Source of the DNA: Streptomyces sp. NBC_01255
Lineage (GTDB): Bacteria > Actinomycetota > Actinomycetes > Streptomycetales > Streptomycetaceae
NCBI RefSeq assembly: GCF_036226445.1
Contig: NZ_CP108474.1
Location: 6,572,001-6,636,000, forward strand
Length of the DNA stretch: 64,000 nt
Reading direction: 5' to 3'
In this document: positions 30,385 to 33,692 of the stretch, piece by piece
Numbering within the stretch: the stretch's first letter is position 1
Layout of the letters: every line of letters starts with the position of its first letter
Program-made: the position numbers and the translations under genes
Notes under the pieces: generated by a model
What the model was told of the DNA's origin: nothing
The model's input: only the letters and a program-made list of their open reading frames with translations
The model's database searches: none

Positions 30385-31035
30385 ATGAGTGGGATGCGAT
30401 ACGAGGCGATCACCTGGGAACGGCTGGCCGGCACGCTCGCCGGGCACCTTGACGCGGCCACGCCCGGCGACGGCGGACCATGGCTCAAGGTCGGCATCGA
30501 CGGGCCGCCCGCCGCACCCGGCGGCGAGCTCGCCGGACTCCTCGCCGAGGCGCTCCGGGCGCGCGGCCGCGCCGTCCACGTGGCCGGGACGGGCGGCTTC
30601 CTGCGTCCCGCTTCACTCCGGTACGAGTACGGGAAGCGGGACCCCGACGCGTACTACGACGGGTGGACCGACATCAAGGCCCTGTGGCGCGAGGTCTTCG
30701 CGCCGCTGGAACCCGGCGGCACCGGACGCGTGCTGCCCGACCTGTGGGACCCGGCCACGGACCGGGCGACCCGCAGCCCGTACGTGACGCTGCCGCCCGG
30801 CGGGGTGCTCCTGCTCCACGGGCCGTTCCTCCTCGGCCACTGGTTCCCCTTCGACCTCACCGTGCACCTGCGGCTCTCGGCCGCGGCCCTCGCCCGGCGC
30901 ACCGAGGAGTCCTGGACGCTGCCCGCCTTCGCCCGGTACGAGGCGGAGGTCGACCCCGCCACGACCGCCGACGTCGTCGTACGCGCCGACGACCCGCGCC
31001 ACCCGGCCTGGACCGGGGGCCAGTCCGGGGACTAG
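30385..31035 (+). CDS. Uridine kinase-like protein with altered P-loop
   Basis: A 216-residue protein resembling Streptomyces uridine-kinase-family proteins (RYEYGKRDPDAYYDGWTDIKALWREVF, LLLHGPFLLGHWFPFDLTVHL). The expected Walker A is replaced by VGIDGPPAAPGGELA, with no GK(S/T), so ATP use is uncertain. ATG 30385 was chosen; ATG 30394 is also possible. The TAG stop (31033-31035) lies in the CTAG target of the neighbouring insertion sequence, yet the reading frame is intact. Before insertion the gene would have run end-to-end into psuK, coding another nucleoside kinase. Confidence 0.7.
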   Translation: MSGMRYEAITWERLAGTLAGHLDAATPGDGGPWLKVGIDGPPAAPGGELAGLLAEALRARGRAVHVAGTGGFLRPASLRYEYGKRDPDAYYDGWTDIKALWREVFAPLEPGGTGRVLPDLWDPATDRATRSPYVTLPPGGVLLLHGPFLLGHWFPFDLTVHLRLSAAALARRTEESWTLPAFARYEAEVDPATTADVVVRADDPRHPAWTGGQSGD

Positions 31036-31170
31036 TACTCCAGCCGGACTTTGATGTTTTGCCTGGTCAACGGCTTGGGTTTGGGGAGTGTAGCGGGGTG
31101 GTGCTGGAAGCGGGGCGGGTTCACCTGGCCCGTCCCGCGAACGAGTGCCCTCGCCGTGTGTAGTGACATC
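31036..31170 (+). repeat. IS left terminal inverted repeat, 135 bp
   Basis: It begins TACTCCAGCCGGACTTTGATG and matches the complement of the right repeat in 134 of 135 bases; the one difference is at 31045 (C against A). Confidence 0.95.
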
Positions 31171-31212
31171 TGCGGGCTCTGGCCTGGTGCCGACGGCGCC
31201 ATCGTGACCAGT

Positions 31213-32442
31213 TCATCGAGTGGTCGCCCTGTGCAGCAGGATGTCGGTGGGCAGCTGCCAGGAGACGGCGAATCTCGGCTGGTGTGAGGTCCACGAGGTC
31301 GGGAGTGTTCTGCTCGGTTCCCCTTTTTCCCTCGCGTGGGCGGCGGTGACGGCCAGGAACGCGTGGGCGAGCATGGCGAGAGTGATGTGCCGGTGCCAGC
31401 CGGTGTAGCGGCGGACTTCGTACTGGTCCAGGCCGCATTCGTTCTTCGCGCTCTGGAAGCACTCCTCGATCTTCCAGCGGCAGCCGGCGATCCCCACGAG
31501 GTCGGTGAGGGTTGCCTGCAGGGGTGCCGAGGCGAGGAAGTAGGCGAGCTCGTCCGGCTTGGTGATGCTGCGGCGGGCGAGCATCCATCGCTGGCGGGTG
31601 GGCTCGTCGCCGTCGAATTCCCAGACAGCCGGCAGCCGGGCCGCGGCCCAGTCGTAGATTCGGGGCCCCTTGGCGCCGTCGCCGCAGGAGAGCTGCTGCC
31701 ACGCTTCTGGCGGAGCCTGGCCGATGAGATGGTCGATGCGGGGGCCGTGGACCTGCTGGGACTTCGGTACGGCCATGACATAGGACAGGCCGACGTCTTC
31801 CAGGAACCGGCGGAAGCGGGAGTCCTGCCCGTAGGCGGCATCCGCGGTGACCCAGGCGACGGGCAGCGGGGAGGCGAGTGCTCGCAGGACCATGGTGCGG
31901 GCCAGGTCGTTCTTCGTCGCGAAGCCACGCTCGCTGGGGATCTTGGCAGCACGGCAGCGCTCGAGGTCGTCGGTCCAGGACTTGGGCAGGTAGAGCTCGC
32001 GGTCGACCAAGGCATGGCCCAGGGTGGTGGCGTAGGCGGCGAAGACACCGATCTGGCAGTTCTCGGTGCGGCCGGCTGTGCCGGAGTACTGCCGTTGCAC
32101 CCCGGCTGAAGTGACACCCTTCTTGACGAAGCCGGTGTCGTCGATGATCAGGACACCGTCGTCGGCGCCGAGGTGCTCGGCGACGTAACCCTGCAGGTCA
32201 TCACGGATTCCGTCGGCTTCCCACCGGCTTTTCGCCAGGAGGTGCTGCAGTCCGTCCGGCGTGGAGTGCCCGGCAAACTCGGCCAGTTGCCAGGAGTTCT
32301 TGCGGCCCACCGGGCCGAGCAGACCACGGACGTAGTCCCGCATCCGGCGTCGCGGCTCAACACGTGAGAAGCGGTGCCCGACTTGCAGGAAGAGTTCTTC
32401 CAGTTCGTGTTCCCACTCGTTGGCGGTTACGTCATCAGTCAC
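31213..32442 (-). CDS. IS701-family DDE transposase
   Basis: A 409-residue transposase, full length for the family. It opens with an HTH-like helical region (HRFSRVEPRRRMRDYVRGLLGPVGRKN) characteristic of IS701 proteins. The RNase H-like core supplies the catalytic acids: Asp in LIIDDTGFVKKG (residues 101-102), Asp in WVTADAAYGQD, and Glu in KIEECFQSAKNECGLDQYEVR. It cuts and rejoins the ends of the surrounding element. GTG 32442 lies just inside the right terminal repeat. No frameshift or stop is seen. Confidence 0.95.
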   Translation of the reverse strand: MTDDVTANEWEHELEELFLQVGHRFSRVEPRRRMRDYVRGLLGPVGRKNSWQLAEFAGHSTPDGLQHLLAKSRWEADGIRDDLQGYVAEHLGADDGVLIIDDTGFVKKGVTSAGVQRQYSGTAGRTENCQIGVFAAYATTLGHALVDRELYLPKSWTDDLERCRAAKIPSERGFATKNDLARTMVLRALASPLPVAWVTADAAYGQDSRFRRFLEDVGLSYVMAVPKSQQVHGPRIDHLIGQAPPEAWQQLSCGDGAKGPRIYDWAAARLPAVWEFDGDEPTRQRWMLARRSITKPDELAYFLASAPLQATLTDLVGIAGCRWKIEECFQSAKNECGLDQYEVRRYTGWHRHITLAMLAHAFLAVTAAHAREKGEPSRTLPTSWTSHQPRFAVSWQLPTDILLHRATTR

Positions 32443-32462
32443 ACATGGTGGCTGTCCAGCCC

Positions 32463-32597
32463 GATGTCACTACACACGGCGAGGGCACTCGTTCGCGGGA
32501 CGGGCCAGGTGAACCCGCCCCGCTTCCAGCACCACCCCGCTACACTCCCCAAACCCAAGCCGTTGACCAGGCAAAACATCAAAGTCCTGCTGGAGTA
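32463..32597 (-). repeat. IS right terminal inverted repeat, 135 bp
   Basis: Mirror copy of the left repeat. Its outer end reads GCTGGAGTA and abuts CTAG. It also holds an open frame of 45 codons (32464-32601) that ends on the TAG within CTAG; the left repeat has the same frame in mirror image. Confidence 0.95.
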
Positions 32598-32601
32598 CTA
32601 G

Positions 32602-32762
32602 GGCCTGTCCGGCGGATCATGGCCGGGGCCCCGGCGTCTGGCACGGCACCTCGCCGCGTTGCCGAAACGCCCGAATAGCTCCGCTATTAGTGCGCTCCGG
32701 CGCCTTGCGATGCACCGCACCAGACGCCGCGACCTATCCGACCCTGATCCGCCGGACAGGCC
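32602..32762. mobile_element. 161-bp foldback (MITE-like) element
   Basis: Terminal repeats GGCCTGTCCGGCGGATCA (32602-32619) and its complement (32745-32762) match perfectly over 18 bases and are flanked by CTAG on both sides (32598-32601, 32763-32766). The interior is also self-complementary at many points, including GGCGTCTGG against its complement and a central AATAGC-TCC-GCTATT. There is no coding capacity. Size, inverted ends and target duplication fit a non-autonomous transposable element. Its left CTAG is shared with the IS701-type element. Confidence 0.8.
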
Positions 32763-33692
32763 CTAGACGGTCGCCCCGGGTGTGGGGTCCAAGGGTCTGC
32801 CTCCCACGACGGTGACCGCCTCCGCGCCCGCGCGGCAGCCCGCCTCCGCGGCCTTCACCGGGTCCGCGCCCGCCAGCCGGACCGCCAGGAACGCGCCGGT
32901 GAAGGCGTCGCCCGCGCCCGTCGAGTCCACCCGGAGCGCCGCGGGCACCGGAGGCGCCGCCACCCGTGCCGTGACCGCGCCGCCCTCGGCGACCAGAGCG
33001 CCCGCCGGTCCGAGGGTGACCACGACGAGCGGATGGCGCCGGCTCAGATCCGCGGCCGCCGCTTCCGGTTCACGGCACCCGGTCAGCAGCCGGGCCTCGT
33101 CGGCGTTGGGCAGCAGTACGTCGGCACCCGCCGTCGCCTCCAGGAACCCGTCCACCCCCAGCTCCGCGAGGAACCCCGCGGAGGCCGGGTCCACGCTCAC
33201 CGGAACGCCCGCCTCCCGCGCGTCCCGCAGCGCCCGCCGGGCCGTCTCGCGGCTCGCCGGGGCGAAGAACAGATAGCCGGAGAGGTGCAGCGCGGCCACG
33301 CCGTCGAGTACGCCGGCGCTCCAGTCGGCGGGGGAGAGGCGCAGCGCGGCGCCGCTGTCGGTGAGGAAGGTCCGCTCGGCCGAGGCGTCGACGAGCGCGA
33401 TCACGGTGGCCGTCGCCGCCTCCGCGTCCCGGACGAGCAGCGGGCGCACCCCCGCCCGTCTCAGCGCCCGCTCGTGCCAGTCCGCCGCGTCCGTCCCGAC
33501 CCGGCCGAGCAGCCGCACGTCCTCGCAGCCGGAACGCACCGCCCAGCAGGCCGCGTTGGCCCCGGCGCCGCCCGGGAGGGTCCGGATCTCCGCCGCCGTG
33601 TCCGTCGCGGGCGCGAGGGGCGTCCGGTGCCGGGCGACGACGTCCGTCACCACGTCCCCGACGACCAACAGCGCGCGCCCCAGCCGGCTCAC
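32763..33692 (-). CDS. psuK: PfkB-family kinase, probable pseudouridine kinase
   Basis: A 309-residue ribokinase-fold enzyme. GGAGANAACWAVRSG is PfkB signature 1 and RVDSTGAGDAFTGAFLA is signature 2 with the catalytic Asp. Its GTG start overlaps the stop of psuG by four bases, so the two are translationally coupled. PsuK phosphorylates pseudouridine and PsuG then splits the phosphate ester product; substrate here is inferred from that linkage. The TAG stop lies in the CTAG on the right edge of the foldback element, and the frame is intact. Confidence 0.8.
   Translation of the reverse strand: MSRLGRALLVVGDVVTDVVARHRTPLAPATDTAAEIRTLPGGAGANAACWAVRSGCEDVRLLGRVGTDAADWHERALRRAGVRPLLVRDAEAATATVIALVDASAERTFLTDSGAALRLSPADWSAGVLDGVAALHLSGYLFFAPASRETARRALRDAREAGVPVSVDPASAGFLAELGVDGFLEATAGADVLLPNADEARLLTGCREPEAAAADLSRRHPLVVVTLGPAGALVAEGGAVTARVAAPPVPAALRVDSTGAGDAFTGAFLAVRLAGADPVKAAEAGCRAGAEAVTVVGGRPLDPTPGATV

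Follow-up and report, generated by a model that had tools for sequence, protein, structure and literature searches.

A family of small foldback elements in Streptomyces, MITEs by their features, is concentrated at CTAG tetramers shared by the stop codons of two convergent genes (stop–stop CTAGs), well beyond the supply of such CTAGs. In the window—the whole 64-kb stretch of DNA analysed here—one of these MITEs abuts an IS701-family insertion sequence, and these two unrelated CTAG-targeting elements were probably inserted one after the other at the CTAG of overlapping TAG stops. The features of the locus are as follows.

30394..31035, + strand: nucleoside-kinase-like gene (uridine kinase-like in the initial annotation), from the gene call; TAG stop at 31033-31035
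31032..31035: left CTAG, stop of the + strand gene and left flank of the insertion sequence
31036..32597, − strand: IS701-family insertion sequence, 1562 bp between the CTAGs, three identical genome copies; ends TACTCCAGC
31036..31170: left long terminal inverted repeat of the insertion sequence, from arm comparison
31213..32442, − strand: IS701 transposase, 409 aa; NF033540 at 460 bits (cut-off 150), PF13546 at 187 bits
32463..32597: right long terminal inverted repeat of the insertion sequence, from arm comparison
32598..32601: middle CTAG, common to the insertion sequence and the MITE
32602..32762: foldback element, probable MITE with IS5-type ends, 161 bp; seven near-identical copies, stable fold, ends matching an IS5-family element
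32763..32766: right CTAG, holding the stop of the − strand gene and flanking the MITE on the right
32763..33692, − strand: PfkB-family kinase (psuK in the initial annotation), PF00294 at 162 bits; TAG stop at 32765-32763

The inverted-repeat arms of both elements reach the CTAGs at 31032-31035, 32598-32601 and 32763-32766: the arms of the insertion sequence span 31032-31170 and 32463-32601 (139 nt, 99% complementary), and those of the foldback element 32598-32626 and 32738-32766 (29 nt, 93% complementary). The repeated units agree with these ends, and the boundaries proposed in the initial annotation thus hold. When both elements and the duplicated CTAGs are removed in silico, the junction reads GGGGA-CTAG-ACGGTC, as had been claimed, and its single CTAG provides the TAG stop on both strands, in agreement with the ends of the two gene calls. 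Since every junction is CTAG again, both stops are preserved through each insertion and the two proteins stay unaltered; both genes still end in TAG, just as had been argued. CTAG is also rare, as had been stated: the window contains 15, where 100 shuffled versions with the dinucleotides preserved average 78.0 (sd 7.8), and 134 were counted in 864 kb of the same genome. For the + strand gene, NCBIfam kinase models score 18-20 bits, far under the cut-off, and no Pfam family over its cut-off was found. The neighbour of psuK at 33689-34678 matches PF04227 (Indigoidine_A, 380 bits), which we take to be the family of the pseudouridine-phosphate glycosidase PsuG.

The insertion sequence encodes a DDE transposase of the IS701 type and, with both CTAGs included, is present in three genome copies identical across 1570 bases. 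We examined 32 loci of this group and obtained both ends in 24. Members of the IS701 family duplicate a 4-bp target of the YTAR type and have short terminal inverted repeats. Identical 4-mers flank 20 of the 24 elements (16 CTAG, 3 CTAA and 1 TTAG) and 4-mers with a one-base difference flank four, the YTAR type being partly built in by a search pattern that admitted YTAR only. The elements therefore share with the family both the transposase and, within this YTAR-limited search, the 4-bp target duplication. They differ in their terminal inverted repeats, which measure 116-181 nt with arms at least 85% identical in all 24 elements scored, much longer than is usual in the family; this mismatch was not taken to exclude them from it. 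An excerpted account gives the target duplication of the IS701 family as 4 or 5 bp (PMC8024623). The arms are alike within each element (31036-31170 and 32463-32597 in the window; L081, L082 and L160-L188) though the elements differ from one another; a process of some kind seems to maintain the similarity of the arms. Ten of the 24 elements (L082, L161, L164, L167, L169, L170, L171, L173, L183 and L185) adjoin another IS701-like end on a common YTAR tetramer, and stacking is therefore common in this group.

The 161-bp hairpin appears, from its ends, to be an IS5-family-derived MITE. A 1348-bp IS5-family element located between CTAGs at another locus (L293, genome G090) has 24-nt ends, including CTAG, that equal the foldback ends with one base off. 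Its transposase is split over two ORFs (PF13340 at 99.9 bits), which score 141 and 83 bits against NF033580, the second being under the cut-off of 110. MITEs are defined, in the part of the source seen, as elements of 70-300 bp with terminal inverted repeats and no coding capacity (PMC3733652); the 161-bp foldback has 29-nt arms that are 93% complementary and shares its ends with an autonomous-type element, that at L293. Its hairpin folds at -107.4 kcal/mol (z -9.4). The unit recurs in seven copies at 98-100% identity (40 of 128 candidates scored), six of which match from the first base of CTAG while the seventh has the left tetramer TTGG. Among MITE sites, CTGA/CTGA flanks at one favour a 4-bp duplication, and GTAG/CTAC and TTAG/CTAA flanks at others favour a duplication of TA only. 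The sole strong Rfam match, the plant miRNA hairpin RF04159, reaches 47 bits where the gathering score is 168 and was rejected as a chance resemblance between long hairpins.

Besides the full-length copies, the genome contains many shorter derivatives. The shortest, with 26-58 bp between the tetramers, extend hardly beyond the two ends and are scattered at gene ends (for example at positions 3405280, 5841018 and 5008969 of the same genome); they look like internal deletions. A second foldback family (L089, L090 and L095) has ends like GGGGTGTCTTGCCGATC, a core resembling that of the window MITE and CTAG-like flanks that are partly decayed.

How are the insertions distributed with respect to stop codons? 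Each insertion was collapsed in silico and the resulting CTAG was classed by its overlap with stops, using gene calls from a purpose-written codon-usage caller rather than curated annotation. The sample comprises 26 MITEs with both CTAGs intact, 13 from fetched stretches of the window's own genome and 13 from six other Streptomyces genomes. In the own genome, 26 candidates yielded 14 with two CTAGs, and 13 were kept after the one at 4113872, with a mispaired left end, was left out. Elsewhere, 80 regions of 24 other genomes gave 66 end pairs, of which 30 passed the filter (at least 17 of the 20-nt end matching, length at most 310, the search pattern requiring one intact CTAG) and 13 had both CTAGs intact; these 13 sites from six genomes were counted singly, without correction for relatedness. 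The elements at 5687057 of the own genome and at L359, whose right tetramer is now CTAA, stand outside the 26. A further 242 CTAGs served as the background.

Seven of the 26 MITEs are at stop–stop CTAGs, 12 at a stop facing a convergent gene and one at a stop between tandem genes, with one, three and two in convergent, divergent and tandem intergenic DNA, respectively. The corresponding background numbers are 3, 33 and 24 at stops and 7, 72 and 76 in intergenic DNA, in addition to 25 inside genes and two others. Stop–stop CTAGs thus account for 7/26 MITE sites against 3/242 other CTAGs (p=3.6e-6), or 6/25 against 3/242 without the window site (p=2.6e-5). The excess extends to any stop (20/26 versus 62/242, p=3.8e-7) and to the convergent context as a whole (20/26 versus 43/242, p=1.4e-9). 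Within the convergent context, the stop–stop class still stands out, at 7/20 versus 3/43 (p=0.008; p=0.019 without the window site). Two of the seven stop–stop cases depend on a weakly supported gene; when these and the window site are removed, the proportion is 4/23 versus 3/242 (p=0.0013), and 4/17 versus 3/43 within the convergent context (p=0.09). The flanks of insertions are GC-richer than those of background CTAGs (0.79 versus 0.66), and we therefore used a GC-matched control, in which 7/26 MITEs compare with 2/104 CTAGs having equally GC-rich flanks (p=1.7e-4). No clear target motif wider than CTAG was found among the 26 MITE sites.

These proportions bear on the simplest alternative, namely that the pattern merely mirrors where CTAG survives, most CTAGs being at stops. 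CTAG is indeed depleted and 62 of the 242 background CTAGs overlap a stop, but the MITEs exceed this background both at any stop and at stop–stop sites. As an account of the whole pattern it is therefore highly improbable: it is contradicted for the MITE and remains adequate for the IS701 elements. After five elements at locus edges were set aside from the 24, the IS701 tally numbers 19, of which five lie at a stop, a proportion no different from the background (5/19 versus 62/242, p=1), and six in the convergent context (6/19 versus 43/242, p=0.14). A stop–stop CTAG by itself was seen for none of the 24 IS701 elements scored. The MITEs and the IS701 elements accordingly differ in their presence at stops (20/26 versus 5/19, p=0.001). 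The suggestion that stop–stop CTAGs are natural landing sites for elements targeting CTAG is thus upheld for the MITE and not supported for IS701, so that the niche does not extend to CTAG-targeting elements in general. Because IS701 elements stack on one another and have no stop preference, the window locus is best described as a MITE-type site where one IS701 copy is stacked with a MITE.

A different reading of the enrichment is that the MITE hairpin acts as a two-way terminator for gene pairs without room for one, and is retained as a useful part rather than tolerated. The very stable fold, the enrichment in the convergent context and its restriction to MITEs over IS701 elements all accord with this idea, and a similar role has been suggested for SPRITE repeats in the excerpted text of PMC3049150. 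However, a terminator scan of the region gave nothing above chance, its one site (0.9 expected) lying within the insertion sequence rather than the MITE, and tolerance accounts for the pattern as well; we consider retention for termination rather unlikely.

We looked in relatives for sites without the elements. An empty CTAG is seen at some other loci, but at the window locus in none of the relatives examined. The search for psuK in 80 fetched named relatives succeeded in 70, and in none of these does one CTAG serve both stops; nor was a shared CTAG seen by eye among the 29 genus loci listed. Among the eight stop–stop loci tested, three have an element-free stop–stop CTAG in relatives. At 5687057 of the own genome, the element-free site with CTAG kept is present in G268 (98%) and S. 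narbonensis (96%), the stops being read from the alignments; the L323 site has such a CTAG in G280 and G081, and the L334 site in G163 and G247, with a CTAG 20 bp off in G093. None was found at the other five (the window locus, 5008969, 5841018, 7507152 and L359). At sites where a stop faces a convergent gene, CTAG without the element is seen in all three spanning alignments at 4238761 and in one of four at 1428501, while at 3405280 TAG but not CTAG is kept in all four. The same gene pairs retain an overlapping stop–stop CTAG across several species (L421, L422, L439 and L441), a hint that these overlaps endure in a CTAG-avoiding genome.

The element-free sites also argue against the notion that the elements import CTAG and create stop codons by truncating genes. 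Nearly every young copy has CTAG at both ends, as this notion expects. Nevertheless, the same CTAG or stop position is present in the element-free L389, L391, L399, L401, L402, L411, L421, L422, L439 and L441, and the direct repeats of IS701 elements differ by site (CTAG, CTAA or TTAG). Importation is thus contradicted at these named sites, and we regard it as very improbable.

At the window locus, the insertion sequence and the MITE could instead have entered separate CTAG stops, with no overlap, and the spacer could have been deleted later between the inner CTAGs. In the six closest named relatives, spacers of 22-95 bp separate the two stops, several relatives have TAG, and some CTAG, at only one stop, and a relative at 5841018 likewise has CTAG at one stop plus a spacer. 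This history, however, calls for one more step, a precise deletion between 4-bp homologous sequences, whereas element-free stop–stop CTAGs do occur at other loci and a 4-nt overlap, reading CTAA, arose in the same gene pair in S. sp. SirexAA-E (L062). We therefore hold separate stops to be a doubtful alternative and favour successive insertion at a single shared CTAG, the overlap having presumably been in place beforehand.

Successive insertion would proceed as follows. The IS701 element duplicates its 4-bp target, CTAG here and CTAA or TTAG elsewhere, and the IS5-type MITE duplicates either CTAG or TA alone, in which case the tetramer is completed by the terminal G and C of the MITE itself. 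The likeliest cause of the MITE enrichment is CTAG-directed transposition followed by selection, which we infer: insertions within coding or promoter DNA would be lost, and a CTAG held by one or two stop codons would persist in a CTAG-avoiding genome and tolerate insertion. A bolder combination, in which overlapping TAG stops are a self-renewing landing pad and the hairpin is retained as a portable two-way terminator for spacerless gene pairs, is speculative and probably goes too far. In that case, the two stop codons together would protect the palindrome CTAG, the preferred target of the MITE, from decay, and stacking could continue without limit because every insertion restores CTAG at its two ends.

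Cost-free landing places decide the copy number of a transposon in each genome. In the present case, the target sequence, the avoidance of CTAG across the genome and the way in which the stops overlap together yield a harmless, reusable site, as measured against other CTAGs. Should the hairpins also terminate transcription, parasites would have a path towards becoming functional components of compact genomes.

The initial annotation knew of no description of this arrangement as a general niche. None of the literature matches listed describes elements entering overlapping stop codons or gives the quantified combination reported here; its components are already in print separately, namely convergent enrichment, repeat-supplied TAG stops and the duplication of CTAG by a MITE related to IS5, as far as the excerpts of PMC3049150, PMC3733652 and PMC3189936 extend. 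In Streptococcus pneumoniae, the BOX, RUP and SPRITE repeats and insertion sequences are, as here, over-represented between convergent genes, with 36 CDSs taking their stop codon from a BOX repeat; they belong to other element families, and the excerpted description mentions neither a CTAG target nor overlapping stops (PMC3049150). IS630 favours TA within CTAG, according to the title of a paper listed among the references of PMC2170065 (Tenzen and Ohtsubo 1991), and resembles our elements in this preference, but its transposase is of another family and the part duplicated is TA. MITEPsy1 of Pseudomonas syringae is likewise an IS5-related MITE, with 18-nt inverted repeats, that inserts at CTAG or YTAA and duplicates its target; its sequence differs from that of the window MITE, and its description, as excerpted, draws no link to stop codons (PMC3189936). 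Finally, the GTAG-tagged REP palindromes lie mostly between unidirectional and convergent ORFs, and their termini often supply the TAG stop to the flanking ORFs (PMC3733652, in excerpt). Those units are associated with RAYT-type transposases and the element itself provides the stop, whereas here it is the target that retains the stop on both sides.
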